DNA of 64,000 nt from a virus, in the IMG/VR virus record IMGVR_UViG_3300031963_000075, positions 1 through 64,000 of that record. The stretch is one strand, 5' to 3'. Position 1 is the first letter of the stretch. Every line of letters starts with the position of its first letter. The translations under genes were made by a program, and so were the position numbers. Shown in pieces: positions 3,779 to 54,402 of the stretch. The notes beneath the pieces are model-generated. The model did no database searches, was not told where the DNA came from, and saw only the letters and a list, made by a program, of their open reading frames with translations.

Positions 3779-6700
3779 TTATGTAAAGTTTATTATATTA
3801 CATGATGGTAATTGTGATGCCCCGTTGAATAATAGTGTGGAGGTTTGTAGGAAGTTTAATCCATAAGGGAACGTTTCGTCAATTGTCCAAACCTGACCAT
3901 ATGATGTGACTATGTGTATTTTTGATGACTCTGTGTACAAACCAAAAGCATCTGTAATTGTTGGGCTAAGTTGTATGTCTATTTCTTGTACACCAGTTGT
4001 ATAATCATACTGACTTATATATTCATTACCATCATCCTTTGTTGTTACTATAAGTTTATTACTTGTAGTATATATAAAGTCACCAGACACTTGTCGTGTA
4101 AAAGGTATGTTAAACTTATTTGTAATTACAGGTGAAACACCACTTATGTCCATTTCTATAATTTGTGTCACACCTGTCACACATATCAATGTTGTGTCAT
4201 CAATTGCTGCCAATCCTGGTCCAAATTGTGTTGATCCAAAACTAATAGTTCTATTGTAATTACCTGAAAATGGTGAAAGTGTTATATCATATTCAAAAAT
4301 ATTAACATTTCCTAAGCTACTGTCTAACAACCAAAGTTTATTTGCTGTATGTGCGTTATCTGAAAAAAACGCAGACACCCAACCTGTAATAAAAGGAACT
4401 AAATTTGTTTCACTATTTGTGGGGGTAAAATACCCATAAACATTTGTAAAATCACAAACAATAACATCACAAGATAAAAGGTCAGGAGGTGTTGGTAATG
4501 ATGGTGTAGGTGTAGGTGTTGGTGTTGGTGAAGGTGTTGGTCCACATTCTCCTGTGTCACAAGAGTAAATGATTGACAAAGTAGCAGAACCAGGACCAGA
4601 AACAACTGTAGGTACTGATGTTGAACACACATAAGCTACTTGTTCTCTTAATAGTATTGATGTTGGTCCGATTTTACAATCATCATAGTCGAATATTGTT
4701 GCCACAAAATAATTACCATCTAAGAAATAACAAAAACAATTTGTAGGTGTCGGGCTTGGTGTTAATGTTGGGGTTGGCGTTAATGTTGGTGTAACACTTA
4801 TTGTAGGTGTGGGTGTTGGTGTTAATGTTATTGTTGGGGTTGGGGTTGCAAATTCAATATCAGCCTCGAAATCCTCACAAGAATCATTTAATGTTATATC
4901 CGCAATAAAATTATTACAATCACGCTGTTTACCACAAGTCTCACAAATTATCTCATATTCAATTAGAAGATTGATTTTAACATTAATATCTGCCAATTCA
5001 TTAAAATTAACCGATATACAATTTTTATTTTTTTCATCACAATTATTTGTTATTGTGATTTTGTTTGTTGCAACATCAATAAACACATCTCCTATTTCGG
5101 GATATTCATTAAGTGTATTTTGTAAGCTTTGGATCCAAAGGTACTCTGCAAAAGTGGCAAATGTTCCCCCAGTATAGGTATAAAATAAATTTTCTTTTAT
5201 ATTACCATCAATGTTTACTTGTGTTGTAAATGTGGCATTAATTATTTGACAACCTGTATTACCAACTGTCAAATCGAAGAATCCTTCATTCATCATTTGA
5301 AGTATCCCTCTTTTCCCATATTTACCCGTGTTAACAAAATCATCACTACAAATAGTATAGGACTCGTATATTGTGGTTATTTCTGTTCCACTTAAAACAA
5401 CCTCAGCCGTTTTAGTACATCCACTACTATCTATAACGGTTACAGAATATGTACCATTTGATAAATTAACTAAATGTAATCCTGTTTGTGAACCAACATT
5501 AGAACTCCAATTAATTGTAAACGGAGGAATACCATCTGTTATATTTAAAAATATTTCACCATCGTTTCCACTTACGGGTTGTATAGTCGAAAGGAAAAAA
5601 TCAACTGGTTGTGATGGTGATATATAAATTAACTCTTGTTGTACACAAGGTGGTGTTGCAGAATCAGAAACTGAAGCCAAATAAAAACCTGGTGTAAGAT
5701 TTGTGAATGTATTTGTTAATTGTGTTGTGGTTGTTATTGGTGTTCCACCTGACAAAGTATACGTTAATGGTAATGTACCTCCTGATGAAGCCGTAATTAT
5801 AACCGTTCCATTATTAAATCCACAAAATGTATTTGAGAAACTTGTTGCAATTGTGTATTTATTCTCATTTAAAACACTAAAACTTGTTGTAAAAATACAA
5901 CCTGAATTATTTGGTATATCTTGTATTGATAATGTATATAAACCACTTGTCAACCCACTGAAATCACAAATTGATAATGCGGTCGTAATTGTTGTATTTC
6001 CGAATGGGTCGGTCAATGTGTATTGAAAGTTTCCTGGTGCTAATCCATTATTTAACTCAATGTGAACTGAACCGTCGTTCAAATTACAGTTTGAATTTGT
6101 TACCTGTAAAGTTGTGACAATAAAACCGTTTGGTGTTAATAAACTAACGGAGGCTGTTGTTGTACATAATCCTGAGTCTGTTACAAATACTGAAAAAACT
6201 CCCGCAGGTAATCCTGTAAAGGTATGAGTATTTCCGAATTCAACTTGGATATCTCCGTTTGAACCTGAAAAATAATATGGTGCGGTTCCTCCTGATAATA
6301 CAACAGTAACCTCCCCATCATTTGTAAAACAACTTGGTTGTTCAGTTGTTAAAATAGAAGCAACTCCAAGTATTGGGACTTCAGATAATGTAATAGTTTT
6401 AGTTAATGTACAACCATTTGCATCTATTATTGTTACACCATAAGTTCCCGGATTTAAACCAATAACTTCAGGTCCTGTTTGAACACCCACATTTGGTGTC
6501 CAGTTATATGTGTATGGTGGTGTTCCTGTTAATCCTGTAACAAAAATTTTACCATTTCCATCTATTGATACGCAGCTAGAATCATTAACACCAAATAACC
6601 CAAAATCCAATGGGTCTGATTCCTTTATTAAACAAACTTCACTTTTTCCTGTACAACCCCCACCATCATTTCCAATCACATAATATAAACCTGGTGATAA

Positions 6701-7135
6701 ATTATTAAAAGTGTTATTAATGTTACTTCCAGTTCCAATTAAATTACCATCGATATCGTACAAATCTAAAGTTGATGTACCATATACGACAGATGTATTT
6801 GCGGTAATCGATCCATTGTTCAATCCACAAGTTGTTCCTGACGCTTCTATCGAAACACAACTTCCTGATGATATTGTAAAATTAAAATAACCTCTTGTGT
6901 GTCCTGGTTCACTACAACTGTCTAATATTTCTACAGTATATGTTCCAGCCGTCAAACTAGTTGCGGTATATGAGGTAACTGGTCCTGCGGGTGGTATTAA
7001 ACCTGTTGACGTAAATTCTGAAACTGAGTAAGGAGAGACACCCCCCGCTATTGTAAAGGAAAACGCCCCTGAACCTGTGTTTTGACAATCGCCTGTTATT
7101 TGAATATTATTCAATATTATTACACCACAACTCAT
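3779..7135 (-). CDS. SprB-repeat adhesin-like virion protein with Thr-Pro linkers and a C-terminal propeller-like domain (1,118 aa)
   Basis: Residues 1 to about 590 hold seven repeats of 70-85 residues. Each has the SprB pattern: a Cys with a Gly-rich or Asn-Gly turn, a G-G-T-x-P-Y-x-Y-like strand, a GL-x-x-G-x-Y-x-V-x-V-x-D segment, then GC. Repeat 3 is clearest (TGTPPYTYNW, LNPGTYGVTIIDANGC). SprB repeats are known from gliding adhesins of Bacteroidota. A 190-residue unrecognised domain follows, then two Thr-Pro linkers separated by a short Cys domain. The last 220 or so residues contain repeated short strands reminiscent of a beta-propeller, without a clear family. It overlaps the 1,000-aa gene by one base. 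Likely a receptor-binding or host-surface-mimicking fibre. Confidence 0.65.
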   Translation of the reverse strand: MSCGVIILNNIQITGDCQNTGSGAFSFTIAGGVSPYSVSEFTSTGLIPPAGPVTSYTATSLTAGTYTVEILDSCSEPGHTRGYFNFTISSGSCVSIEASGTTCGLNNGSITANTSVVYGTSTLDLYDIDGNLIGTGSNINNTFNNLSPGLYYVIGNDGGGCTGKSEVCLIKESDPLDFGLFGVNDSSCVSIDGNGKIFVTGLTGTPPYTYNWTPNVGVQTGPEVIGLNPGTYGVTIIDANGCTLTKTITLSEVPILGVASILTTEQPSCFTNDGEVTVVLSGGTAPYYFSGSNGDIQVEFGNTHTFTGLPAGVFSVFVTDSGLCTTTASVSLLTPNGFIVTTLQVTNSNCNLNDGSVHIELNNGLAPGNFQYTLTDPFGNTTITTALSICDFSGLTSGLYTLSIQDIPNNSGCIFTTSFSVLNENKYTIATSFSNTFCGFNNGTVIITASSGGTLPLTYTLSGGTPITTTTQLTNTFTNLTPGFYLASVSDSATPPCVQQELIYISPSQPVDFFLSTIQPVSGNDGEIFLNITDGIPPFTINWSSNVGSQTGLHLVNLSNGTYSVTVIDSSGCTKTAEVVLSGTEITTIYESYTICSDDFVNTGKYGKRGILQMMNEGFFDLTVGNTGCQIINATFTTQVNIDGNIKENLFYTYTGGTFATFAEYLWIQSLQNTLNEYPEIGDVFIDVATNKITITNNCDEKNKNCISVNFNELADINVKINLLIEYEIICETCGKQRDCNNFIADITLNDSCEDFEADIEFATPTPTITLTPTPTPTISVTPTLTPTPTLTPSPTPTNCFCYFLDGNYFVATIFDYDDCKIGPTSILLREQVAYVCSTSVPTVVSGPGSATLSIIYSCDTGECGPTPSPTPTPTPTPSLPTPPDLLSCDVIVCDFTNVYGYFTPTNSETNLVPFITGWVSAFFSDNAHTANKLWLLDSSLGNVNIFEYDITLSPFSGNYNRTISFGSTQFGPGLAAIDDTTLICVTGVTQIIEMDISGVSPVITNKFNIPFTRQVSGDFIYTTSNKLIVTTKDDGNEYISQYDYTTGVQEIDIQLSPTITDAFGLYTESSKIHIVTSYGQVWTIDETFPYGLNFLQTSTLLFNGASQLPSCNIINFT
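4505..4545 (-). repeat. Thr-Pro dipeptide repeat linker (second of two) in the SprB-repeat gene
   Basis: On the plus strand this reads as near-perfect GGTGTA/GGTGTT hexamers and encodes a TPTPTPTPTP-type linker between a small Cys domain and the C-terminal propeller-like domain. Confidence 0.75.
4741..4850 (-). repeat. Thr-Pro repeat linker (first of two) in the SprB-repeat gene
   Basis: Imperfect GGTGTT/GGGGTT/GGTGTA hexamers encode a roughly 35-residue linker of TPTPT units broken by ITL, ISV, TLT and SPT. It is the same type of low-complexity sequence as in the sheath insertion and in the fibre gene at the right edge. Confidence 0.75.
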
Positions 7136-10100
7136 TAATTACACAACATATTGAAGTTTATTCCAACGTTAATTTTGAAGTCCTGTGTCACGCTTAATGG
7201 TAAACAGTTACCATTATATATAGTCACAGTTTGATTTGTATTATTTATAACATAACTTAACCCATCTGATTGTAAATCATCTAAAGCGTCCTTCAGAGAC
7301 ACTAACCAAGTGTTTGCACTTGGGTAACTTGCTATAGGATTTGTATTTCCGTAACCTGTAAAAAATTCTTTATGAACTAAGTTTACACCATTTAAAATCA
7401 AATCAACATACCATGTACTTTGTAAGGTGTCCGTTTGACAATTAGGTGGAAGTAAATTATTTGCCAACAATAAATTATTAAGTATCACGGCAAATGATGT
7501 GACATTAGGGTTAGAACCCCAAGGATATATAGGACAAACAACCTCTTGTATTGGACAATCAACCGCAAATAATTGACCAACCAAAGAACATGGTTTACAA
7601 GGTACTGGAACAATTTTACAACCCATTTGTCTTCTCCAAACAAATTTTTGTCGGTGAAAAATAGAGTTTTCTAATCTTACACCTGATGTTAATAAAGTTG
7701 TTGCGGGAATTAATTGACCAACTAATTTAATCCAATAATCACCTAATCCATTCACATACTCAATCATGGTTTTATATGTGAAATTATCATTCGGAATATT
7801 GATTGCTTGGTTAGATTCTAAATACCTCCAATAAATAGATTGTAAGGTTGGGTATCCCCCTGTTTTACCATCTGTTATAAATTGTCTATTTCTGACATTA
7901 ATCATGTTTTTCCAAAACGTTTGAGCGAACTCAAAAAATGTTTTTTGTTTTGGCTTAGGGTTAATTTCTGTCCAATCTATACCACCTCTATTTGGATATG
8001 GTCCATTTGGATATGGATTACAATATGTTGGTTCTATATAGTCCAACCCTTCGTTTGGTATTGGGTAATTGTATCTTCTTGACATAGACCAAACGTCATA
8101 TGCCAACCCTTGTGCCGGATTTAAGAAAACATCAACATTTTTAACATTTATAACAAATCTTTCATCATAAACTCTATAATAAGCGGTAAATCCACCATCA
8201 GAAGTATTTCTTAACCCGTCTTCATCAATTGTCCAACTTTTTTTGTTATCAATTACTTTAACTAAATCATACCCCAAATTCATAAATGGAAACCTTCTAT
8301 ATCTGTCAAGATATATTTGACCATAATTAAACGGTAATAAACTTGTCTGATAACTTGGATTAGAACCAACAAAGACTTGATTTGTTTCATTAACATTTTC
8401 TGGCATATGGTGGTCTGGTGTTGACTCGAACCATCCTCCCCCTATTTGAAAGAAGTAACTTTCAGAGTCTGGAACTGAAGATGGGTATCCTTGACTATCC
8501 ATAGGATAATCACTTCTACTCAAAGTTGTTGCACTAATAACTGTTTGTATTGTAAAACCCGTATATTGTACTCCCATAATTGTAAAAACATTTGTTGGGT
8601 CTAAAACAGGTATTTGTGTCACATATAATCCTCCTGATATATTTAAATATTGATTTTCAAATTGAGAAAGGTTAATTCTTTCATCCGCTAAGTAAACATA
8701 TTCATTAAAGTCTATCAAAGCTTCAGGGGCACCTACTAACCTTAACAAAATTTCTATTGACCTTCTCGTACCTTTGGATTTGAAAAGGTAAGCAGCGTTT
8801 AAAATTAAATTTTTATAATATTGGTAGTTAATTTCGTTTGGTGTCAAAGCTCTTGAGTAACCCGGAAAATTACTTGGTTCATTTGTTCCAAAAACTGATT
8901 GTATAAGTGTTTCATTACTTATTGGTGATATATTTGTTTTCCAACCTAATGTTTCAGCTAAGTTTTTTAGAAGTTGTGATGGTATATCATTTCCCGTATT
9001 GTAATTTACTGATGTCATGTTTGCTAATGACATAACAAATTTTCTCACTTCATCGAAACTTCTACCATATATTTGAAGTATTTTTTCGTACTTTCTATCA
9101 GAAGTATCAAATTCTTTTAATGCTCCTGTTGTGAAAAAACGTGATATTAAATCTGTCTTATATGAATCTAAATTTTCGCAGATTTCATTCAATGATGTTA
9201 AATACTTATCAAAATCATTTGTTCTAATATCCAAGTTCCAGTTTCCATCTAATGGCCAATTTATTACTTCTTGTACGATTGAGTATGTGCCATCATCATT
9301 TTCTTGTGGTACTTGGAATGTTGCACTATATATTGGTTTAATTAGTCTATTTAATAAAAATTGTTCTACCTCATCAAAAAACTCTGTAAATGATTTTTCT
9401 GTGTAAAAACTGTTTGGTCTTAAAACAATACTTTTTGTTGTTGCAGATAAACCATCAAAAGGATTTCCTTTAACATAAAATTTTAAATATTGGTCAACAT
9501 CAGTTGTTGGTGTCAGAAATGTTAAATTATACTCAGTATTGTCAACAAATATTGAATAATTTAAGTACTGTGTTGTCAAATTTCTTAATGGTGAAACCTC
9601 CACTTCACTTAATTGAAGGTTTCTTGTTGCATTTGATGTATAATCAATATCAAAAGGGTTTCGTATCCAATTTAATGGTAACTCCAAATATGTTTCATTG
9701 AGAACTTGGTTATAGACTATATTTACAGCAGTAAGTCCTGTTCTAAAATTTAAATTTGTGGATATACACTCAATAGCGGCCGGAAAATAATTTATTATTT
9801 TTGATACTGAGGTTGAAATTCTTTTTGATAAAGACCCGTATAAAGTAAAATTGGTAACCTCAGATAAATCAAAATTAGGATAAACCTGTAAACTTTGTGC
9901 AACTAGATTTTTAGACTCTTCAATTGAAGATAAATCCAAATCGGAAAGACTAATGGGACTTGAAAACGCCCCAATATTAAACCCTCTGTTTTGTTTTTCT
10001 GATAATCCTGTTGTAAATTCAAAATTGGCGTTTGTGAGTCCACCACCCGCAACTAATTGTACACCAACTAATTCATCGGCAAATGCACTTGCTCCAGTAT

Positions 10101-10137
10101 CTGTTTGTGGTGGCCATTTATATTTTATTACCGCCAT
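7135..10137 (-). CDS. Baseplate/tail protein with a tail-protein-I-like segment (1,000 aa)
   Basis: Residues about 430-475 read as an N-rich helix followed by FKSKGTRRSIEILLRLVGAP. This resembles the 'KGT, then Ile/Leu-rich helix, then Gly' signature of phage tail protein I (P2 gpI class), which sits at the baseplate periphery and connects to fibres. The rest is beta-rich structural sequence; residues about 830-860 have a Cys cluster (CKIVPVPCKPC). It overlaps both neighbours (stop overlaps the next ATG at 7135; start touches the previous stop at 10137), so it is in the baseplate operon. Connector between plate and fibres is inferred; similarity to tail protein I is by eye and covers only that segment. 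Confidence 0.5.
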   Translation of the reverse strand: MAVIKYKWPPQTDTGASAFADELVGVQLVAGGGLTNANFEFTTGLSEKQNRGFNIGAFSSPISLSDLDLSSIEESKNLVAQSLQVYPNFDLSEVTNFTLYGSLSKRISTSVSKIINYFPAAIECISTNLNFRTGLTAVNIVYNQVLNETYLELPLNWIRNPFDIDYTSNATRNLQLSEVEVSPLRNLTTQYLNYSIFVDNTEYNLTFLTPTTDVDQYLKFYVKGNPFDGLSATTKSIVLRPNSFYTEKSFTEFFDEVEQFLLNRLIKPIYSATFQVPQENDDGTYSIVQEVINWPLDGNWNLDIRTNDFDKYLTSLNEICENLDSYKTDLISRFFTTGALKEFDTSDRKYEKILQIYGRSFDEVRKFVMSLANMTSVNYNTGNDIPSQLLKNLAETLGWKTNISPISNETLIQSVFGTNEPSNFPGYSRALTPNEINYQYYKNLILNAAYLFKSKGTRRSIEILLRLVGAPEALIDFNEYVYLADERINLSQFENQYLNISGGLYVTQIPVLDPTNVFTIMGVQYTGFTIQTVISATTLSRSDYPMDSQGYPSSVPDSESYFFQIGGGWFESTPDHHMPENVNETNQVFVGSNPSYQTSLLPFNYGQIYLDRYRRFPFMNLGYDLVKVIDNKKSWTIDEDGLRNTSDGGFTAYYRVYDERFVINVKNVDVFLNPAQGLAYDVWSMSRRYNYPIPNEGLDYIEPTYCNPYPNGPYPNRGGIDWTEINPKPKQKTFFEFAQTFWKNMINVRNRQFITDGKTGGYPTLQSIYWRYLESNQAINIPNDNFTYKTMIEYVNGLGDYWIKLVGQLIPATTLLTSGVRLENSIFHRQKFVWRRQMGCKIVPVPCKPCSLVGQLFAVDCPIQEVVCPIYPWGSNPNVTSFAVILNNLLLANNLLPPNCQTDTLQSTWYVDLILNGVNLVHKEFFTGYGNTNPIASYPSANTWLVSLKDALDDLQSDGLSYVINNTNQTVTIYNGNCLPLSVTQDFKINVGINFNMLCN

Positions 10138-12225: not shown

Positions 12226-13007
12226 TATGGGTTAATATATTCATACCAGTTTATTGGGTTGTTTGTTCCAATTCTATTTCCGTTGTTATCTAAAATTGTA
12301 TATGTGAAATCGTTATAATCAAAGTTTACTTCATAGTAAAAATACACAGTAGGGTCGAAATTATAAGGAGTTGGGAGTATTAAATTCTGTGGTGTGTTTG
12401 TCATTACCACATACGAACCTGTTTTCCCGTTGAAGAATTTTGCCTTCATATACAAGGTATCAATATTGATATATTCAGTACTTCTTAACCAATATAAAAA
12501 GTACCCTTCTTTATCACCTAAAAAGTCCAACGTGAATTGTGGTCTTTTAATTGACACTGTTGGTAATGTTGGTGTTAAAACTTGACCTGATTGAGTCGCC
12601 CCTTGTTGTACTGGAATTATTACTGTTAAGTAATTTTTTTGTGTTGCATCGTCTTTAGTATCATACAAATCCAACTTAAAAAAACTTTTTGTGAATGGTT
12701 GTGAAAAATAATATAATTCATTTACAGTAAACCCTTCTGTCAAATAAGAAGGAGTGTAAATATTCAAAGCTTGTTCAAAAAAATTAAAGTTGTACCTAAC
12801 ATCTGTTCTATCACTATCATCATGTTTTTTGTGTGAAAATCTTGATATCTCAAAACTATTAATTGTACCAATGACATCTTCGATTGTTTCTTCAACAAAT
12901 TGGTCGATAGCATCATCATTACCATCAATATCCCATTTTATTTCAATAGGTATATTGACGTAATTGTCATTTGGTTTGTTCAATATTCTATAGTTATTCA
13001 CAATCAT
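12225..13007 (-). CDS. Baseplate-operon protein (260 aa)
   Basis: No family recognised. It starts MIVNNYRILNKPND, has an acidic helix around residues 28-50 and then alternating strands with many aromatic residues. It overlaps the previous gene by 14 nt and the next by one base, so it is cotranslated with them. In T4 the corresponding stretch after gp6 holds wedge and plate-edge genes, which makes a baseplate role likely, but nothing in the sequence is diagnostic. Confidence 0.4.
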   Translation of the reverse strand: MIVNNYRILNKPNDNYVNIPIEIKWDIDGNDDAIDQFVEETIEDVIGTINSFEISRFSHKKHDDSDRTDVRYNFNFFEQALNIYTPSYLTEGFTVNELYYFSQPFTKSFFKLDLYDTKDDATQKNYLTVIIPVQQGATQSGQVLTPTLPTVSIKRPQFTLDFLGDKEGYFLYWLRSTEYINIDTLYMKAKFFNGKTGSYVVMTNTPQNLILPTPYNFDPTVYFYYEVNFDYNDFTYTILDNNGNRIGTNNPINWYEYINP

Positions 13008-14745
13008 CTATCGAAGGGTCTTGTATTGTATTAAAGTTATTCATATTATTTCCTAAACTAATATTATTACCGTCACTAAACAATCTGAAAATTATTTGAT
13101 TATATGGGTAATGGGCGCCATTTAAAAACGGGTAATCAACACCATAACCTTCACTATCTATGTATCCATAAGGGTAAATATCTCTCCATCTAAAAGTCTG
13201 ACTTATTATAGAATAATATGAGTAGTCGGGAACTATGTTCAAATTTTGGTAACCTTCCTCATTTATTGATGTAGAAAAGACTTTTATGGTAATTGGGTGA
13301 TGGGGTTTATAATAATATCCCAATTGATTTTGATAGGATAATAAATCAGGTGAAGAAAAGTAGTTAGGATTAAATGTGAATTTATGATACGAATCAGAAA
13401 TAACCCTTTCTATTTGTTCATAACCATTGTATTCACAAAAATCACCATTTAAAACATCACCAATATTTAAAGTGTCAACATAATAAAAATCATTAGTATT
13501 TGTGTTATATGTTGAAATCGGTAAATTAGTATCTGAGTTTGAGTTTGTTGTTGCCCACCATGTACTTGGTGTGGTACCCTCTAATGGTAAATTAAATTCG
13601 TACCCTTCTTTAAGTTGTGAGTTTGGACCTAATGTCCAACCAAAATACCCTCTCCATATTATTGAAACAAACAATTCTGAAACTGGTCTATACCAATTGT
13701 CTCTTAATCCGGCAATATCAATGTCCCTATTAAAAACAAGATTATAAGAATCATTACCTTCTTTGACTGAAATTCTATTTACACCGTTTGGTGTTAAAAC
13801 TGCCTTTTCATATTGAGTTACTTTCCTAAATATGTTTTTTTCAAAACCAGCATTAACTAATACTGTGTCATCTAATAAAGTTAATATTTTGTGTTTTCTT
13901 ACGTAATATCTAGATTCTGTATCCAAAGGATTCGTTTGATTTACAACCCTTTTAAATGTTCCTATTGTTCCAACATCAAATGTTGGTGGTAGATATCCAA
14001 TATTTTGTATGTTGAATATATATTCATTTGTACCAAAATTTTCATTCCCTAACGATGAAACTTGGAACAAATCAGTTCCATTATAATCAAAACTAAGTTT
14101 AACTGATTCTCCTATATTTAACCCGTGTTTCATTGGGCATCTAAAAGAAATAACATTATCCCCATATAACGAATTTGTTTCTATTATAAAAGGAATTCCT
14201 TCTGATGCCATCCATGTCCAATTATTAGTAGTCTGTCCATCATCGGCATACAATTCTCTATCAGTATTTTCATAAGGATATGTTATGTAATATTGCCAAT
14301 TATATGTTGTTGCACTTTTGTTTACAAAATTTACTTGTGAGTTAACACCAGTAGTGTATCCATTAACATTATTATCAGTTCGTATAAAATCAAACTCACT
14401 AAACTGTGGACATCCTTCCCATGGCGAAGAGGGGTTTGATGCCGATGAAACAGCATTTGCAATAGAGTCAGTATAAAATAAGTTGTTTTTATATGGATTA
14501 TAAGTTACATCTCCTTTGTATGCGTTTTCAAAAAGAAAAACTATTTTACTTGTTGGTCTAAAAATTGTTGATTCATTTCTTTCTTTTTGAAACAATTCAG
14601 CTAAATTGATTTGCTCTGTTCTATCAAACTCAACTTGTTGCTTGAAGGTTTGATTTAGTGGTACTCTGATTGCCTCGTCAACGTTACTTGATACCTTGTT
14701 CTTTTTAGAACCTAAAATAATTTTTATGTTTTCATTGTTACCCAT
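12994..14745 (-). CDS. Baseplate wedge-type protein (583 aa), positional match to T4 gp8
   Basis: A large soluble protein rich in Asn, Tyr and Phe with no membrane segment. The N-terminal 60 residues are charged and helical, the rest is beta-type. It lies directly after the very large wedge-like protein and overlaps it by 8 nt (14738-14745). In T4 the order is gp6, gp7, gp8, so by synteny this could play the gp8 role. I see no sequence motif that proves this. It also overlaps the following 260-aa gene by 14 nt. Confidence 0.4.
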   Translation of the reverse strand: MGNNENIKIILGSKKNKVSSNVDEAIRVPLNQTFKQQVEFDRTEQINLAELFQKERNESTIFRPTSKIVFLFENAYKGDVTYNPYKNNLFYTDSIANAVSSASNPSSPWEGCPQFSEFDFIRTDNNVNGYTTGVNSQVNFVNKSATTYNWQYYITYPYENTDRELYADDGQTTNNWTWMASEGIPFIIETNSLYGDNVISFRCPMKHGLNIGESVKLSFDYNGTDLFQVSSLGNENFGTNEYIFNIQNIGYLPPTFDVGTIGTFKRVVNQTNPLDTESRYYVRKHKILTLLDDTVLVNAGFEKNIFRKVTQYEKAVLTPNGVNRISVKEGNDSYNLVFNRDIDIAGLRDNWYRPVSELFVSIIWRGYFGWTLGPNSQLKEGYEFNLPLEGTTPSTWWATTNSNSDTNLPISTYNTNTNDFYYVDTLNIGDVLNGDFCEYNGYEQIERVISDSYHKFTFNPNYFSSPDLLSYQNQLGYYYKPHHPITIKVFSTSINEEGYQNLNIVPDYSYYSIISQTFRWRDIYPYGYIDSEGYGVDYPFLNGAHYPYNQIIFRLFSDGNNISLGNNMNNFNTIQDPSIDDCE

Positions 14746-17700
14746 TTGTTTGTGAGTTGTTTACATAAAGTTTTATAAACCTGTCAAGTGCGGTAAAACC
14801 ATTATTCAACCCAAAATAAAAGTGGAATGGTGCTCCCATAAGTATTGGGTCTTGACCTGGTGAATTAGGTGCTCCATAAACTACGTTTGTAATTGATGGG
14901 TCAGGAGATGGAGTAAAATTAGTTATATGCCAATCTTGTGTTGTAGTTGTTTTGAAATAATCTGATGTTTGTGGGTCTAAATCTTGATATCTTGATTTAT
15001 AAAAACCGTTGTTTGTTGTTAAAATCTGTGTATACCAATTGTTATTTTCTGTTCCGAAAATATTTTGAGTTGGTGTTGTTATTTGCCATTTATAAAAAGG
15101 CACTTCTTGAGTTGATGGATAACCAAAATTATAACCAACAAAAGGAGTTAAATTATATGTTTGAACTCCAGGTGAATATCTTTTTCTAGTGACTGTTTGT
15201 TCTGAATCTGATTGGTAAAAAACACCGAAAACAGGTCTAGCAGGTGACTGTGTATCTTCACCAACAAAAAGATAGTTATTTGGGTAATTCTCATTTAAAT
15301 ATGGTTTAACTTTAAACTCACTGTTTGCAGAAAAGGCTTGTGCGAAATCACCGTCAATTCTATCACCACCTCTATTACTATTAAAGAACTGTATAACTCC
15401 AATTCCTTCACCTTCATTACTGTTTGTGGCGATAGGTAACATTTGTTGTACTATAGTTTGGTTAATTAACCTTGAAATAATTCCCATTTGAAGTATATCT
15501 GAGTCATCATTATATGATGTTGACTTCATTTGATTAACAAAATAACCCTCAAGGTTTTCATTACCACAAACTTGATTTATAAAACCATCTCGTGGTCCTA
15601 AATCAACTATTGTTGTTGGTGATTGTAATTGTTTGTCATTATATCCAGGATTACTAACAACCAATGATGCTAAATTGTTAGGAGGTGTAGGTGATGGTTT
15701 ACCAATAAATTGATTAATAAATCTATCATAAGGTGACGATCTATAATAAAAACTATTTTGTGTGTCATCAAACACAATTGTATCTCTACAATAATTATAA
15801 GTGGGGTCTGTTACTGAGTTTGATGCGTATGTTGCGGTTTTATTAAACGACGGCATATATAAGAAACCGTTAATCCAATTGTTTTGGAATACTCTAGCAA
15901 ACACTCCTCGACAAGCGGCCAACATCAAAAGATATCTAACTTTCCATTCTAAAAATAATAAAACATCTTCTTTATATTCTGTAATATATTTTTTATTCAA
16001 TAGACAATAACAACCTTTTACTACTCTATCATCAGGTACGTCACAATTAGTACTGACACCAAAGTTAGTCCCTGATCCAGTATAACATTTTAATGATGTT
16101 AATCCTTCACAAGTAAGAGTGGATGTAAGACCTGTAATTAATCCTGATGAGTCAGCATAATTACCTGTCGGTGGTGTACCAGGCGATGATAATGTTGGTG
16201 TACTTCCGGCACTTCCTGGTTTGAAGTAATAGAAATTATTGTTTTGATGTAATCCATAACCCGTTTCAGAACCTACACCATCTTCCGTTCTTGTTGATGT
16301 TGGTAATCTATCACTTCTCATAACAAGTTTTGTTTCGTCAGAAAAGTTTACGGTACTTGCAAGATATCTATAATACGCTCTTGAATATAACGCATTGTAA
16401 CCACTTGGTGGATCCCCATACTCGTCGTTTGTACTAACACTATCTAAATAACAATAATATGTTGGTTGATTTGAAGGACCGTCTTGTGGAGTACCTGTAC
16501 ATCCAACCCCTGAACTTGTTGGTGAACCCGCACCAATGAATGTTCCTCCAACAAAATAATCTTGTACGTATTTAGGTATTACTTGATTGAAAGGGGAGTT
16601 TGTTAGAAGGTTATACGGTGCGGATGATTGGGATGATACAGGAATAAACACTGGTGATGTTGATGGTGTATATGACCCTGAATTATCATCAGTAGATAAA
16701 TAATAATAAGGTAATGTCGAAGTAAATGCCGTAAATTGTCCAGGTGTCAAATCAAAAGTTAATGATGGAAAATATAAATTTGTTGTAGTATTATCCAAAG
16801 TATCATGAGATAATGGTTTAACATTATTAGTTGAGAGAGGTTGAATCGGATAGTTGAAGTAATATTCTCCTGTCACTATTGGACCTGTACCATAAGATGT
16901 CTCACCAAAAATATATGATAAGTCATATTCAATTTCTTGTTTAGGAGTGAAAGGGTCAACACCTCTAGTTAATATAATTACTTCAAGTGAATTTCTGTTT
17001 GAGGCTTCAACATTGTCAATTGCCGGTCCTAAATTTTGAAAAAGTGGGTCAGTATTTGTATATGGAAAACATTGGTTCTCATACACGAATTGAATTTCAT
17101 GAAGTAAATATGTTAATGGATAATAACCTACATTGGTTATGTTAGCTAAGTTATAGAATGAACTATATGTCATACCTGTTATGACTTGGAAGTACTCTAT
17201 ATCTGTTGGGTATTGTAAATAATTGTCTGTATCTCCAGTATTCAATAAGTAGACATTTGCGGTAATTCCGACAGAACCATTAGAGGAAGGGTTGGCATAA
17301 TCAACAGTTCTTGATATTGGTGCAGATACGTTACCAAAAGCAGTAACCCCTGTAATTGCGTTATTATTGAATTGGTTTTCAGTCGCTCCTGTTATATTGA
17401 CAGAACAATTTGATGAATTTGGGTCTTGGAAGGTAACCAATTCTCCTGTCCCCAATTGTAAGGTTGTTCCCGCTTTAGCCAATAATACTATAACTTGGTC
17501 TTCTATTGGGTCACTTGGTGTTGAGGTTAACGACGGGTTCAAAACTGTTTTTATTTTATTGACACCTGTGCCAGGTGCGGAACCTACTGAATCATAAAAA
17601 TATTTATCTCTCGTATTAAATTCATTTAGTTTTTGGGGATAAGTTTCTCTTGTTGGGTAAGCAAACCATCTTTCATCACCACCGCTTGTTAATTCAGCGG

Positions 17701-20245
17701 CGAATAAGAAAGGTTGTGGAGCGTGAAGTTTATATTTTTCTGAAGGTTCTATAACATCATAACCCGAAAACATTCTTTGGAAATCTAATAAAGCCCTTTC
17801 TAAAACATTAGGGGTAATTTCTTCATTAAAAACTCTATTCAAAAGAGATCTATACCTACTAGATCCTCCACAATAAAATTTACCTCCTGCGTTGTCATCT
17901 ATGTCGGTATTGTCATCGATTTGAGCATAATTTGAGTGTTCAGATAGAGAATAAAATTGTGGTTGATTAACTGGTGCTAAAAATGTATTGTCGGTTGATG
18001 TCTGTGCTGGACTTCCAGCATCAGCTTGTTGTTGATTATAACCATCATTAAGTTGTTGTGTTACAGAACCAATATCAAAATCATCGTCAACCTCAACATC
18101 ACCACAATCACATGAACATGAATTACATTCGGGATATGCAAGCATAGGAAGTCCTATCCTCCTAAATCCTTTTAGTCTTACTATGTAAACTATTACAAAC
18201 GCAAAGAATAGTATGTATAACGCAAGTTTGAATAAAGCTTGTAATATTTGCCACGCCGCCCTTAGAACCGCACCTATGTTTATTACAGGACCTCCTGGTA
18301 TTGCCGTTGCGGCACTTTCAATTGCGGAATTAATCGCATCAATAGTTTCTCTTACTTGTATGTAGAGAAAATATATACATAATATAATAAGAACCCACTT
18401 TAAGACAGGCCATGCCCATGCAACAAAGTGTGCAACAAATAACAATATAAGAATTGGGAATGTTAAAATGTTTAATAACAACATCGCCAAGAAATAAATA
18501 AAATCAAATTTCTGAACCGCATCATTTACAGGAAATGGATTGTTTTTTGATATACATTCCCTGTCATCTATTTCTTTAATACCTAAATGTCTTGACCTCA
18601 AAATACCATTTTTGTATCTATCCAAGAACATTGCTGTAGTATATACTTTGTTATAATTAAATTCATAGAATCTATCTTCACAGTCAATTGCTTCTTGAAC
18701 CATTGCAGAATCACCGTAATCATCCCAATCTAAACTAAATGCATATGAACGATACGCATCGTAACTTGCTTGGTCATAAAATGAAAACTCAAAAATTTGA
18801 TTTTGTGATGTGTCTACCGCAGTACAGTTTACAACAATGTTAGCACCAGGTGATGTGATTGGGATAGACGTTAAACTACCTGTATATGGTACACCATTAA
18901 TTGTAATGGAAACGTCTTGACTGTTTGTAAAATTTTGTAATATTAACCCTCCTGTTTGTAGTGGTAAAACTAATGGGGGGGACGAAGAAGTTGATGTACC
19001 AGGAACGTTTACAGTAAAATCGGTTGGGGGGTTTAACGTTGGGTCAGCATTAGGTGTTGTTATTGCCCATCCGTATTCTTTAATATTAGGTACTAAAAAA
19101 TTAGCCCTTAGAATTTCATTCTCAATACCACCGTCATTTTGCCAACTTACCTTAAACCTATATTTTCCTTTTGTTGGTATACCGACATTTGGGTCTATTG
19201 ATAATATTTGGTTACCAAACTCATCTGTTGTCACATAATCTAAATTCATTGGGACTTTAACCAAAAAAGTACCATCTCCATCTATAACTTTACCACCTTG
19301 TTCGAAAAAATACTCTTCTAATATTGGATTTCCATTATCATCAATATTTATAGTTTGTCTTATTGCAGAAATTCTTCCTTGCCCTGCTTTCAAACTACAA
19401 AAGTTACCAGCTTTAAAAGGAACTCTACAATTAGTCTTTAACGCTTCCTCATCTTGTGTGGTTGCAATAGACCCCATGAATACTCCTGTAGGTTTTATTG
19501 TTAAATTAACTTCTGTCGATAAATCAAAGTCTGTTCTTGTAATACCAATAAAACAAATATCAGGGTCACCCCATAATGGTTCTACATTTACTTGTTTATA
19601 TAAAGTTAATATTTGAGGTAACTCGTTTAAGTTACTTGAGGATTTAAATTGAGATCCGTTTACTTGACTTTCTACCGCTAAACCAGCGTCAATCAAATCT
19701 TGTGGTGATAATGAAAAACAACCAATATCAGATAAATCGAGATTCATTACCAAAGTTTGCTGTCCTGTTGGGACACCAAAAATCATAAAGTCACCACTAT
19801 CGTTTGTTGATACAGTGTACTTATAATACTTGTCATAAACTTCTATTATAGATTTTTCAAGTAATACTTCATCTCTATCGAAGAATGTCCCTGTAGGAAC
19901 GTGTCCTACGTATTGTGGAGACTTAGGTAATAAATTATATTTATACCCATCTTCATTTTTATCTGTTGGTGTTTTATATGGGTATAGTTCTGATATTATT
20001 GGGTTATTTGAGTCTTCATTTGTTAATGGAATGAATACAGACAATTTTGCATTTGGTAAACCAAATCCACCGTTAACTGAAATTCTTCCAGCTATGACAC
20101 CATAATCAGAACATCTTCTTTGATATATTTCAGTTTGTGTTAACTTTAGTGAAAGAATCTCAATGAAATCGAAGTCTTGGTCAAATTGAAGATTAACTTG
20201 TTTATCAACTCCTATGTTGGTTCTGATTCTATATGAATGTGGCAT
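14738..20245 (-). CDS. Giant baseplate-operon protein with carboxypeptidase-regulatory-like domain and membrane helices (1,835 aa)
   Basis: It is the first gene after gp6, where T4 has gp7, but is nearly twice the length of T4 gp7. Residues about 45-180 resemble a carboxypeptidase-regulatory-like beta sandwich (GVIAGRISVNGGFGLPNAKL at the start, then NDSGDFMIFGVPTGQQTL). Residues about 575-640 contain two or three long hydrophobic helices (for example LAMLLLNILTFPILILLFVA and LKWVLIILCIYFLYI), and about 670-690 another (LALYILFFAFVIVYIV). Then comes a Cys cluster CNSCSCDCGD and an acidic stretch. The rest is Ser/Asn/Tyr-rich beta sequence. A TATTTATC element lies 17 nt before the ATG. Membrane helices are unexpected in a baseplate protein; a role in penetration is speculation. 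Confidence 0.5.
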   Translation of the reverse strand: MPHSYRIRTNIGVDKQVNLQFDQDFDFIEILSLKLTQTEIYQRRCSDYGVIAGRISVNGGFGLPNAKLSVFIPLTNEDSNNPIISELYPYKTPTDKNEDGYKYNLLPKSPQYVGHVPTGTFFDRDEVLLEKSIIEVYDKYYKYTVSTNDSGDFMIFGVPTGQQTLVMNLDLSDIGCFSLSPQDLIDAGLAVESQVNGSQFKSSSNLNELPQILTLYKQVNVEPLWGDPDICFIGITRTDFDLSTEVNLTIKPTGVFMGSIATTQDEEALKTNCRVPFKAGNFCSLKAGQGRISAIRQTINIDDNGNPILEEYFFEQGGKVIDGDGTFLVKVPMNLDYVTTDEFGNQILSIDPNVGIPTKGKYRFKVSWQNDGGIENEILRANFLVPNIKEYGWAITTPNADPTLNPPTDFTVNVPGTSTSSSPPLVLPLQTGGLILQNFTNSQDVSITINGVPYTGSLTSIPITSPGANIVVNCTAVDTSQNQIFEFSFYDQASYDAYRSYAFSLDWDDYGDSAMVQEAIDCEDRFYEFNYNKVYTTAMFLDRYKNGILRSRHLGIKEIDDRECISKNNPFPVNDAVQKFDFIYFLAMLLLNILTFPILILLFVAHFVAWAWPVLKWVLIILCIYFLYIQVRETIDAINSAIESAATAIPGGPVINIGAVLRAAWQILQALFKLALYILFFAFVIVYIVRLKGFRRIGLPMLAYPECNSCSCDCGDVEVDDDFDIGSVTQQLNDGYNQQQADAGSPAQTSTDNTFLAPVNQPQFYSLSEHSNYAQIDDNTDIDDNAGGKFYCGGSSRYRSLLNRVFNEEITPNVLERALLDFQRMFSGYDVIEPSEKYKLHAPQPFLFAAELTSGGDERWFAYPTRETYPQKLNEFNTRDKYFYDSVGSAPGTGVNKIKTVLNPSLTSTPSDPIEDQVIVLLAKAGTTLQLGTGELVTFQDPNSSNCSVNITGATENQFNNNAITGVTAFGNVSAPISRTVDYANPSSNGSVGITANVYLLNTGDTDNYLQYPTDIEYFQVITGMTYSSFYNLANITNVGYYPLTYLLHEIQFVYENQCFPYTNTDPLFQNLGPAIDNVEASNRNSLEVIILTRGVDPFTPKQEIEYDLSYIFGETSYGTGPIVTGEYYFNYPIQPLSTNNVKPLSHDTLDNTTTNLYFPSLTFDLTPGQFTAFTSTLPYYYLSTDDNSGSYTPSTSPVFIPVSSQSSAPYNLLTNSPFNQVIPKYVQDYFVGGTFIGAGSPTSSGVGCTGTPQDGPSNQPTYYCYLDSVSTNDEYGDPPSGYNALYSRAYYRYLASTVNFSDETKLVMRSDRLPTSTRTEDGVGSETGYGLHQNNNFYYFKPGSAGSTPTLSSPGTPPTGNYADSSGLITGLTSTLTCEGLTSLKCYTGSGTNFGVSTNCDVPDDRVVKGCYCLLNKKYITEYKEDVLLFLEWKVRYLLMLAACRGVFARVFQNNWINGFLYMPSFNKTATYASNSVTDPTYNYCRDTIVFDDTQNSFYYRSSPYDRFINQFIGKPSPTPPNNLASLVVSNPGYNDKQLQSPTTIVDLGPRDGFINQVCGNENLEGYFVNQMKSTSYNDDSDILQMGIISRLINQTIVQQMLPIATNSNEGEGIGVIQFFNSNRGGDRIDGDFAQAFSANSEFKVKPYLNENYPNNYLFVGEDTQSPARPVFGVFYQSDSEQTVTRKRYSPGVQTYNLTPFVGYNFGYPSTQEVPFYKWQITTPTQNIFGTENNNWYTQILTTNNGFYKSRYQDLDPQTSDYFKTTTTQDWHITNFTPSPDPSITNVVYGAPNSPGQDPILMGAPFHFYFGLNNGFTALDRFIKLYVNNSQTNG

Positions 20246-20319: not shown

Positions 20320-22161
20320 TCAGCTGAATGTTACTGTTGATAAATTAAGAACACTAACTCTAATATCAACATTTGGGAATCGAACTTGATAAACCTGTGT
20401 TGGGTCGGCAAATATTGTATCTGATATCAAACCTATTTGTTTTGTTGACGGATTAGAATAAGGTTGTGATGTCTGAGCCGATGAATATTGTCCTCCTACT
20501 TTATTAAAGACTTGAATGTCGTCTATAGATAATACACCATTCTCTGATTGTATTTGTCTTCTTAGTTCAGATATATTGACATTTTCACCTAATTGTCTAT
20601 TAACTGGTGACATATATGTTGAGACTATATCTATTATTTTAGCAATTATCGCTCCTTGACTTTGAGATGAATCTAAAACAACCGATATATCAAATCCTAA
20701 ATCAATCACATTTGCACTTTCAACTGAAATGTAATCATTTATCATTCGGTAATTGGAAAGGTAATTTGCAATATTTGTTTTAATTGCATTTGGGGTTACT
20801 GATGTTAGTTTTCCACTAGAGTCGTATGAAAGTATTTTTATTTTAATTTTATTATTTTCTTCAACTATTGAGACTTTAGAGGGTGCTCCAAACTGTGAGG
20901 GCATAGTTCTCAATATAGAATCATAATCGTTAACCGTCACCGCTCTGTTTTGAGCAGAGAAATTAAACGCAACCAAATTTCTTATTTCTTCTAACGTAGG
21001 TGCAGGTGCTCCTCCAATGGCGGCAATTGGGTTCGAACAACTTAATGAATTTACAGTAGTTGTATTTATAATTTCTGATGGTCCGTTTACAAAAAAGTTA
21101 CTCCTTTGTACTTGACTAATAACTCCTACACCAACATTACTTGAAACTCCTCCACCAACTCTATACTGTATAAACAAAGTTGAGTTTGATTTTAGCGTAC
21201 TACCTAATCCTAAATTATCTGAATATTTATTTAGGTTCAAAACAATCCCATCTCTTGCAAAATCTCTTAATTGATTTTCTGCTGAATTGTTTCCACCACC
21301 AAAAGTCATTTTCATAAAACCTTGTGGTGTATATTCAGTTATAAATTTGTCACTTGTTGTTATATATTTTCCTATCTTTATACCAGGCGCATCAGACGGT
21401 TTAGTTGGGTCTTCAACAAAAACTCTATCTTCTACTAATGACCTTACTTCATACCACCTATTGGTTGTAGACAAAAATTCTTGGTCTGTGGGAACATTTG
21501 TGTAAGCGGTTCCATCTTTGACAATTACACTAGTCACACCTAAAACATTTCTTTCGGGTAAAAATAATTCAAAAAATGGTCTAACGTCATTTGGAGTAAT
21601 GATTCTTTTAAAAACTTTTGTTAAACCGTTAACAACAACTTCTCTTTTTGTTATCGTATAATTAAGTAGTCCTCCATCAGCATCAAAATTAGGTCTTACA
21701 ATTCTTGAGTTTGGTTGTCCTTCCCCATTAAATTGTGAAGAAAAGTCTATATCGTATACCGTTTCAAATGATTGTCCAGCACCGTTTACTTGTGTTCCTC
21801 TTCTTAAAATCCCACAATATCTAATATCTTCTTTATCACCAAATGCAGGTACAGTTATAGAAAAATCCACTAATGAAACAGAGGGTCTTTGTCCAGGAAT
21901 TTTTAAACCATAAGTTCTTGCTATATTATATAATGAGTTTTTTTGTTGAGCAAATTGTAAAACAGTTTCTTGTAAACTTCTGTCAATTTGATAATTAAGA
22001 TTATCGGCAACTGCCGCATTCATATCCATCAAAACTGAAAATACAGATGCGTCGTTAAAATTTTGTATTAACTCAGGATAATATGTTTTTACAAAATTTA
22101 TAAGTTCCCCTCTTACTGCTTGGAAGTCCCTTACTGTATACGAAATCTTTTTTTCTGCCAT
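20320..22161 (-). CDS. 6: Baseplate wedge protein, gp6-like (baseplate J family)
   Basis: The N-terminus (YTVRDFQAVRGELINFVKTY, then FNDASVFSVLMDMNAAVADN) and the helix after it (YQIDRSLQETVLQFAQQKNS) match T4 gp6 / baseplate J proteins, as does its length (613 aa against 660 in T4). The C-terminal half has the expected alpha/beta domains including NRAVTVNDYDSILR and SPVNRQLGENVNISELR. gp6 homodimers form the ring that joins the six wedges around the hub. The start lies 6 nt after the gp25-like gene, the usual gp25-gp6 pairing of contractile systems. Confidence 0.88.
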   Translation of the reverse strand: MAEKKISYTVRDFQAVRGELINFVKTYYPELIQNFNDASVFSVLMDMNAAVADNLNYQIDRSLQETVLQFAQQKNSLYNIARTYGLKIPGQRPSVSLVDFSITVPAFGDKEDIRYCGILRRGTQVNGAGQSFETVYDIDFSSQFNGEGQPNSRIVRPNFDADGGLLNYTITKREVVVNGLTKVFKRIITPNDVRPFFELFLPERNVLGVTSVIVKDGTAYTNVPTDQEFLSTTNRWYEVRSLVEDRVFVEDPTKPSDAPGIKIGKYITTSDKFITEYTPQGFMKMTFGGGNNSAENQLRDFARDGIVLNLNKYSDNLGLGSTLKSNSTLFIQYRVGGGVSSNVGVGVISQVQRSNFFVNGPSEIINTTTVNSLSCSNPIAAIGGAPAPTLEEIRNLVAFNFSAQNRAVTVNDYDSILRTMPSQFGAPSKVSIVEENNKIKIKILSYDSSGKLTSVTPNAIKTNIANYLSNYRMINDYISVESANVIDLGFDISVVLDSSQSQGAIIAKIIDIVSTYMSPVNRQLGENVNISELRRQIQSENGVLSIDDIQVFNKVGGQYSSAQTSQPYSNPSTKQIGLISDTIFADPTQVYQVRFPNVDIRVSVLNLSTVTFS

Positions 22162-22167
22162 ATAATA

Positions 22168-22626
22168 TTAAATATTCAAAATAATGAAATCTCCACTTTC
22201 GAAAGATTCACTAGTTATTTTATAATCTATTCTAACTTTTGCCGTATGTTCTAATTGACCAATGTTAGGAACTGTGAATTCTTTTTGGTCATTACCACTA
22301 ATATACGTACCTTTATTTTCTAATTCTGTAGATGCGTCTGTGATTTTAATGTTGGTAATCAATACTCCAGGCATATATTGTTCGACAGAATCTCTAATTT
22401 CTGATTCTATCTCAGCGAATGTGGGTCCATCTAATGGTTCAAAAATATATTCATATATTCTTGTTCCAAAATCAGGTAAATAATATCTAGACCCCTTTCT
22501 TGTTAATAATAAGTGTGTTAAATTAGAACGAACTTCTTCTGATGAATAGTCAGTTAAATCTAAAAACTTCCCATTGAAGGAATCTCTAAAGGGGAAGGTA
22601 ATACCATATGTTACTCCATTTGCCAT
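22168..22626 (-). CDS. 25: Baseplate wedge protein, gp25-like
   Basis: A 152-aa protein of the gp25/lysozyme-like wedge family: SNLTHLLLTRKGSRYYLPDF, GTRIYEYIFEP and the following IESEIRDSVEQYMPGV helix are all characteristic. T4 gp25 is 132 aa; the extra residues are near the C-terminus. In contractile systems gp25 sits in the core bundle of the wedge with gp6 and primes sheath assembly. It heads the long baseplate operon; a TATTTATA element ends only 5 nt before the ATG, suggesting a leaderless or nearly leaderless transcript. Confidence 0.88.
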   Translation of the reverse strand: MANGVTYGITFPFRDSFNGKFLDLTDYSSEEVRSNLTHLLLTRKGSRYYLPDFGTRIYEYIFEPLDGPTFAEIESEIRDSVEQYMPGVLITNIKITDASTELENKGTYISGNDQKEFTVPNIGQLEHTAKVRIDYKITSESFESGDFIILNI

Positions 22627-22985: not shown

Positions 22986-24845
22986 TTAAACAATTTCACA
23001 AGCTCCGCCAGCACAAGCTACTTCACCTCTTAAATCTGTATTGTCTTGTAACTCGATAACTTTTGTTAAATCAACATCTTTCAAAGTGTTAACTAATCTT
23101 TCAAAATCTTCTTTTGTACAATCTTCAAATGGAGCTTGTGTGTAAGTTCCTCCGTTATAAGGTAGAACAGACAAACCATTGTAGTATTTTCTGTTTTTCC
23201 ACATCCAATCACCTACAAGTTCCCATTCATCTTCTTTGATTGAAACTGTCGCTGATACATTATGTGAGTTCTGTCCACCTCTGTGTCCACTTCTTACCCA
23301 CTCTTGTGATACTTTCTTAACTCTTTCCAACATTTGGAACACAGATTCGTATCGTAGAATTGAACCTTCAGGTGCCATTTGAGGGATAGTAATTACAGCT
23401 GTATCATGAGGACGGAAGTATTCGTCTTCTACCAACTCTGGATGGTTGATTGCAAGATAAGAATAAATCGCTTCATTCTTACCAACACGGATTCTTCTCA
23501 AATAATAGTCATTATGCCAAGCGTGAATTCCTGAAGAAGTTCCCAATACTAATGATGATGTCCCTGAAGGTTTAACGGTTGTTGTTCTTGCTGCTTTATT
23601 AATTCCGATGAGGTTTGCAACTCTTTCGTTTTCTTCTTTTACCGCCTGTGCCGCAGCTTTCATATCATAACCTAAAACAACACCAGAACCAATACCTGTC
23701 ATACCAACACCAATAAGTGCGTCTTTTTCTGTTGTTCTTTTCCATACATCACGTAGGTAGTGGAAGTCAGTATATCCCGCTTGTAGTGTTCCGATGAATG
23801 CGGCACCTCTAACTCTTTTTTCAAAATCTTCTTGTGACTCAATGTCCGAAGCGTTTACCTCACACAAGTTACAGAATTGATAAGGACGAAGCCCAATTTC
23901 ACAACAAGGGTTTGTTCCCCAATCTTTGTCATTTGACAAGTAGATTCCTGGCTCTCCTGCTCCTGACAATTCAATTCGTTTCCAAAGTTCCATAAAATAT
24001 TCTTGTGTTACTTTGTGACGAAGAAGAACTGCTGAGTTATTTGCTCTACCTCTTTGTGGATTGTTCTCCCACCAATTACCTGACTTACAAGAAATCATTT
24101 CATCATCATCAGCACTGAATAATGAGATAAGTGCCGCTCTACGAATACCACCTGCTAATACCGCATCTGCAATATGACATACAATATCGTGAGTTTCAAT
24201 CGGGGTTAGTTTTTCTCCTTCTTGTTTTGCGTCCAACACTTTTGTAATGTTATGAATACAATCTTTAAGTGGTTGAGGTCCTGGTGCTTTTCCTCCTGAT
24301 GTTACAAGTAACGCTCCTTTATGACGAATATCAGAAAAATCAAACACAGGTGTAGATGATTTTGTCCCCAAGTATGATTCAATTAATACTTTAATAGCAT
24401 CTGCCCATCCTTCGATTGAATCTCCGATGAGGTATCTTCTTGTTCTGTTTGGATTTGGTTTTTTTATTTCAGGTAGTTTATCTACGTGGTGTTTTTGAAC
24501 TGAGAATCCAACTCCTGTTCCACCTAATAATAGGAACATAGTTTCTGCAAACGCATCTGTATGGTCGATTGGTAAGTAAGCACAATTGTAAACTCTGTTT
24601 GGCGAGATTTCAATTGGTTTACCACCAAATTGTAATGATCTCATTGATGGAAGAATTTTTTTATCATATACCATTTGATATACTTCTTCAATCTGATCTT
24701 TGATTTGTGGGTATTTCTTTTGGTGCATCTCTTTGTTTCGTGTCACCAATTCTTCCCATGTTTCCCTTCTATTTAATTCGGGAATAAATTTAGCGTATTT
24801 CATATACACTGTAATATCACTCAATATTTTTTGCGAAATATCCAT
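22986..24845 (-). CDS. nrdJ: Adenosylcobalamin-dependent (class II) ribonucleotide reductase
   Basis: Reduces ribonucleotides to deoxyribonucleotides for phage DNA synthesis using a B12 coenzyme. Motifs match the monomeric Lactobacillus leichmannii type: PSMRSLQFGG, Cys88 in NCAYLPID, LLLGGTGVGFSV, Cys314/Glu316 in NPCCEI (thiyl-radical Cys and Glu), Cys325 in FCNLCEVN as partner of Cys88, PSGTSSLVLGTSSG, and a C-terminal CAGGAC pair (Cys611/616), like the CEGGAC tail of that enzyme. At 619 aa it is shorter than the 739-aa reference. I chose the ATG at 24845; a TTG three codons earlier is possible. It follows the helicase gene by 27 nt. No oxygen-dependent partner subunit is needed. Confidence 0.9.
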   Translation of the reverse strand: MDISQKILSDITVYMKYAKFIPELNRRETWEELVTRNKEMHQKKYPQIKDQIEEVYQMVYDKKILPSMRSLQFGGKPIEISPNRVYNCAYLPIDHTDAFAETMFLLLGGTGVGFSVQKHHVDKLPEIKKPNPNRTRRYLIGDSIEGWADAIKVLIESYLGTKSSTPVFDFSDIRHKGALLVTSGGKAPGPQPLKDCIHNITKVLDAKQEGEKLTPIETHDIVCHIADAVLAGGIRRAALISLFSADDDEMISCKSGNWWENNPQRGRANNSAVLLRHKVTQEYFMELWKRIELSGAGEPGIYLSNDKDWGTNPCCEIGLRPYQFCNLCEVNASDIESQEDFEKRVRGAAFIGTLQAGYTDFHYLRDVWKRTTEKDALIGVGMTGIGSGVVLGYDMKAAAQAVKEENERVANLIGINKAARTTTVKPSGTSSLVLGTSSGIHAWHNDYYLRRIRVGKNEAIYSYLAINHPELVEDEYFRPHDTAVITIPQMAPEGSILRYESVFQMLERVKKVSQEWVRSGHRGGQNSHNVSATVSIKEDEWELVGDWMWKNRKYYNGLSVLPYNGGTYTQAPFEDCTKEDFERLVNTLKDVDLTKVIELQDNTDLRGEVACAGGACEIV

Positions 24846-24872
24846 TTTTAACAAATTTAATAATTTTTATTT

Positions 24873-54356: not shown

Positions 54357-54380
54357 AACCTCGTCTAACGAGGTTTTTTT
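54357..54380 (+). terminator. Rho-independent terminator after the 100-aa gene
   Basis: AACCTCGT and ACGAGGTT form an 8-bp stem with a 3-nt loop (54357-54364 / 54368-54375) followed by seven T on the plus strand. Confidence 0.9.
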
Positions 54381-54390
54381 GTTTAAAGAA

Positions 54391-54397
54391 TATTTAT
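54391..54397 (+). promoter_or_regulatory. TATTTAT element, peptidase-SOD gene
   Basis: Plus-strand TATTTATC, just after a terminator and exactly 5 nt before the ATG at 54403. Confidence 0.55.
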
Positions 54398-54402
54398 CAT
54401 TA

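Follow-up and report, generated by a model that had tools for sequence, protein, structure and literature searches.

What is a block of hydrophobic helices doing midway along a giant protein of a phage baseplate operon? Little is known of how contractile-tail phages move their DNA through the inner membrane, a task for which the tape-measure protein is commonly proposed. The 64,000 nucleotides of viral DNA analysed here (positions 1 to 64,000 of IMG/VR record IMGVR_UViG_3300031963_000075, hereafter the window) encode a 1,835-aa protein (14738–20245, minus strand) of a family without cultured relatives, in which both hydropathy and an insertion-energy predictor place helices predicted to span a bilayer.

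Using hydropathy, helix prediction and retention among relatives, we delimited the block to aa 582–693 (18167–18502, minus strand). Kyte-Doolittle averages over 19 residues peak at 2.72 (starting at aa 586) and 2.61 (starting at aa 671), and every 19-residue stretch outside the block stays at or below 1.6. A sequence-only reading of this DNA had placed the feature at 18140–18530, that is, about aa 573–702, with more than 500 residues on either side; the block is real within those slightly wider limits, and about 580 residues precede it and about 1,140 follow. The same reading counted at least three helices, which is plausible as a count for this protein: our predictor, a crude one written for this analysis, finds three segments (aa 582–605, 614–631 and 674–691), all with predicted insertion energies below zero. 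The number is not fixed, however, since an AlphaFold2 model of aa 1–760 (41 sequences; mean pLDDT 53, low confidence) contains two long helices, 582–644 and 657–690, and some relatives have only one.

The residues around the block are distinctive. The best conserved stretch of the whole protein, aa 521–575 (18521–18685, minus strand; motif DCED.FYEFNYNK...HLGIKEI..C....FPVND), lies directly N-terminal to it. A CxxCxC cluster at aa 707–714 (18104–18127, minus strand) comes after the block, with Cys707, Cys710 and Cys712 unchanged in all 123 diverse members compared; the longer string CNSCSCDCGD, correctly noticed earlier, occupies aa 707–716 (18098–18127), just beyond the range then given. Invariant cysteines are numerous for a phage structural protein (aa 45–283, 522, 564, 707–712 and 1379–1560), and several of them, together with an invariant histidine, flank the block, where a metal site or disulphides are possible.

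Is the block a chance feature of one sequence? Hundreds of relatives were found in IMG/VR scans, with identities from 75–100% (close) to about 32% (marine); one scan alone yielded at least 592 contig stretches, and the phages concerned, numerous and all uncultured, come from water. In all 227 scored relatives, those with both flanking anchors of the block, it is present at the same place inside a large protein that is otherwise soluble by hydropathy, with peaks of 2.08–3.26 (median 2.69). Five full-length proteins lacking the exact first anchor carry it too, and it is clearly there in relative L214, whose protein ends inside it. A peak of 2.72 or more arises in 0.24% of shuffles of the 1,835-aa protein, and retention in 227/227 scored relatives rules out a chance origin. 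We also looked for a soluble form of the block and found none among 235 relatives, a set that includes L285 (a 57-aa reading, unscored) and L307 (not inspected by eye). Alignment with relatives, which the sequence-only reading had named as a check on short and soluble versions of the region, thus returned shortened forms in some members, yet hydrophobic ones in every scored case.

The two parts of the block evolve differently. A universal 34-residue stretch, aa 582–615 (18401–18502, minus strand), is uncharged in 97 of the 123 diverse members and contains His606 (18428–18430), invariant across all of them. The second part, aa 617–693 (18167–18397, minus strand), is variable and missing in some relatives; its mean pairwise identity is 21% and its median hydropathy 1.18. 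Such drift in sequence with hydropathy held is as expected of helices that would face lipid or pack loosely. Between the anchors, the block is reduced to 68–81 residues in L051, L057, L143, L148 and L150. Relative L217 has one 45-residue helix, of which the universal stretch is part (AlphaFold2 model of aa 384–1582, 90 diverse sequences, pLDDT 81). Across the family its length ranges from 43 to 132 residues and its helices from one to about three, so that a fixed transmembrane topology is not conserved.

The assignment of the 1,835-aa protein to the tail rests on gene position. Directly upstream lies a gp6-type wedge protein (20320–22161, minus strand; PHROG 219, with matches to the gp6 proteins of Microcystis phage Mel-JY01 and Flavobacterium phage immuto, and synteny), followed on the far side by a gp25-type wedge protein or sheath initiator (22168–22626, minus strand; PF04965, E 2.3e-11). 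A 583-aa protein, recognised by synteny, is encoded directly downstream (12994–14745, minus strand). A gp6 match accompanies the block gene in 188/188 loci, directly upstream and within 400 nt in 178 of them, and the 583-aa gene follows directly in 135 of the 137 loci with enough flank. We also compared four tail modules, divergent from one another and taken from the window and from 290-kb, 304-kb and marine 162-kb contigs. Of the proteins in them that are identifiable by homology to the window's tail genes, none but the block protein reaches a 19-residue peak above 1.6. Judged by capsid protein, the closest records to the window are an uncultured 484-kb phage (46%), Mel-JY01 (43%) and immuto (41%); none of the three contains a match to the block protein, and it has no homology to the proteins neighbouring gp6 in immuto and Mel-JY01.

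Other features of the window bear on the phage itself. Counting both strands, the window contains 19 copies of the 8-mer TATTTATA, whose reverse complement is the T4 late motif TATAAATA. Of these, 10 are sense-oriented and lie at most 60 nt ahead of an ORF start, out of 34 starts considered (3759, 11045, 22626, 42396, 45951, 46935, 50337 and 63206 on the minus strand, 54029 and 55522 on the plus strand), most often 12–27 nt from the ATG; the 8-mer is probably a late promoter element. Few ORFs (3 of 33) are preceded by a Shine-Dalgarno-like sequence, leaders are A-rich, ORF 3779–7135 contains SprB repeats, and a Flavobacterium phage is among the nearest isolates, which makes a Bacteroidota host likely. 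ORF 54379–55497 (plus strand) has iron/manganese superoxide dismutase domains at aa 175–364 after an unexplained N-terminal part. A ribonucleotide reductase (22986–24854, minus strand; PHROG 367) has an annotated B12-dependent nrdJ among its phage matches. It shares 69% identity with a protein of a Microcystis phage and 61–63% with proteins from a pair of Vibrio and Oceanospirillum phages that are much smaller, which suggests horizontal transfer.

Is the block protein the phage's version of T4 gp7? The sequence-only reading had put it in gp7's place, which is right as to position, after gp6, and wrong if taken as descent: alignment of a 98-member profile with eight gp7 sequences gave a best hhalign probability of 0.1%, and we reject orthology. 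A likelier gp7-type wedge protein is the 1,000-aa product of ORF 7135–10137 (minus strand), which matches a 1,336-aa protein of Mel-JY01 (BLAST, 5.5e-8) and a 1,265-aa protein of immuto (4e-7), the large proteins that follow gp6 in those phages; hhalign gives 77%. It shares with both homologues a KGT motif, which we take to be typical of gp7 and TssG and which is absent from the 1,835-aa protein; Pfam Tail_P2_I hits neither ORF. The earlier statement that T4 gp7 lacks a hydrophobic segment does not hold: gp7 has a conserved one at aa 877–909 (peak 2.07), and its GenBank annotation gives a predicted integral membrane domain. The two proteins are thus alike in position and in carrying predicted membrane segments, a single one near the C-terminus in gp7; they differ in that the hydrophobic segment lies elsewhere in the chain, homology is undetectable and another ORF is the likely gp7 counterpart.

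Searches with the 1,835-aa protein gave no match in Pfam, PHROGs or a PDB sequence profile, no cultured relatives by tblastn with three family members, and no relatives in bacterial genome contigs. The L217 model (aa 384–1582) has no PDB match with E below 0.5 and no fold match in BFVD; a fold search with the first model (aa 1–760, mean pLDDT 53) was uninformative. Membrane-active segments are already known from phage tail proteins; what is new is this particular protein, with its fold and its location.

We asked where the tape-measure protein stands in this phage group. In the window it is encoded by ORF 42444–44447 (minus strand), which aligns with the immuto tape-measure protein (hhalign 94.9%, E 4.6e-8), shows no homology to T4 gp29 and has no hydrophobic segment (peak 1.02). 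Counting the window and 10 contigs, the tape measures of the block-protein group all lack such segments (peaks 0.73–1.22). The immuto tape measure and its Mel-JY01 counterpart, in contrast, are rich in them, with peaks of 2.24 and 2.37, and a single one occurs in T4 gp29 (peak 2.20). A published survey credits the tape measures of T4 and T5 with little membrane region or none (PMC10996793), so the absence in ORF 42444–44447 is not odd taken alone; it is among the nearest relatives that the contrast stands out most. We also considered the 1,835-aa protein itself as a membrane-spanning tape measure and rejected this, because it is ORF 42444–44447 that is homologous to the immuto tape measure, and the 1,835-aa protein matches nothing in Pfam or PHROGs.

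How might such a segment work? The sequence-only reading offered helices buried in the baseplate and released on contraction. We favour this account, in which the 1,835-aa protein would be a virion protein whose helices are packed away, freed at contraction and inserted in the host envelope, with a probability of roughly 0.4; it stays the best guess because no short and soluble relatives were found. The protein would sit in the baseplate region, probably in several copies per tail, with its central hydrophobic helix or helices buried inside the particle. On contraction these would come out and, once exposed, insert into the host envelope, where they may help to anchor the tail or open a path for the DNA. 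Two observations speak against this account: helix number varies among members, and T4 gp7 is an example of a soluble baseplate subunit that carries a predicted membrane segment. A precedent is phi29 gp9, whose hydrophobic loops are stored in the tail knob as a bundle of helices and are pushed out as a hydrophobic helix barrel (PMC6542822). Both are soluble proteins with a hydrophobic stretch mid-way, gp9 being a tail protein and the block protein, by gene position, a putative one; in gp9 the stretch is a buried bundle emerging to meet the membrane (PMC6542822). The phi29 tail, however, is short and non-contractile and acts on a Gram-positive host, and the block protein is known by its anatomy alone; its L217 model (aa 384–1582) does not match the gp9 fold, and we found no sequence relation. 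Transmembrane tape measures (immuto, Mel-JY01, diffocin, TP901-1) are a second parallel, in that hydrophobic helices are proposed to open the inner membrane (PMC10996793), although the 1,835-aa protein is not a tape measure and the group's own, ORF 42444–44447, has no such segments.

The main rival to buried and released helices is a permanent hydrophobic core, in which helices of several copies would pack together and hold the baseplate without ever meeting a bilayer. Helical core bundles underlie contractile baseplates (PMC10457771, PMC6300606), T4 gp7 carries its conserved segment although it is a soluble monomer in solution (PMC3004832), and the minimal form modelled, in L217, is one long helix. 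Against this, the block is longer (43–132 residues) and more hydrophobic than the gp7 segment and chargeless over 34 residues in most members, and whole helices are gained or lost between relatives, which is unusual for a precisely packed core. We consider a permanent core unlikely, if worth serious attention.

The second idea of the sequence-only reading was a membrane anchor for assembly: the protein would be embedded in the inner membrane of the host and serve as a platform for building the baseplate, as in cell-anchored contractile systems. The hydrophobicity of the block is within the range of true membrane proteins, all three segments are predicted to insert favourably, and the flank after the block is positive (mean +2.1), the flank before it not. 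There is also a related case in the thylakoid-anchored contractile injection system of cyanobacteria, where a helix of the tail-fibre protein Cis13 and an extension of the baseplate protein Cis12 tether the particle to membranes (PMC8894136), so that baseplate-associated parts likewise contact a membrane; there, however, the membrane helix belongs to the tail-fibre-like Cis13, and Cis12 contributes no more than a putative amphipathic helix (PMC8894136). The idea is weakened because single-helix members such as L150 and L217 would need one flank of more than 400 residues translocated across the membrane, which ill suits a cytoplasmic baseplate part, and because relatives differ in helix count and so in topology. 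An assembly anchor therefore seems improbable.

That the protein is no virion component but a late product acting at the host membrane, for instance in lysis or envelope modification, with an incidental place in the baseplate operon, would fit the lack of likeness to known virion proteins and of a fold match, but its constant position across the loci examined, with gp6 on one side and a series of tail genes on the other, its large size and its beta-rich make-up make this very improbable.

Returning to buried and released helices, the membrane-active segments of this phage group would reside in the 1,835-aa protein and not in the tape measure. The distribution of hydrophobic segments suggests that contact with the bacterial membrane during infection falls to this protein and not to the tape measure, the usual candidate. 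Because the tape measures of the group lack the segments that are so numerous in immuto and Mel-JY01, the two cultured phages on which the comparison is built, a relocation of the membrane-active part is suggested. As a tentative proposal, a widespread T4-like, probably Bacteroidota-infecting group may have moved its membrane-inserting helices from the tape measure to a giant protein of the wedge operon, new in fold, that would open or grip the host membrane at contraction. A large natural group with membrane segments in a baseplate-operon protein and none in the tape measure would offer a direct test of where this function lies.
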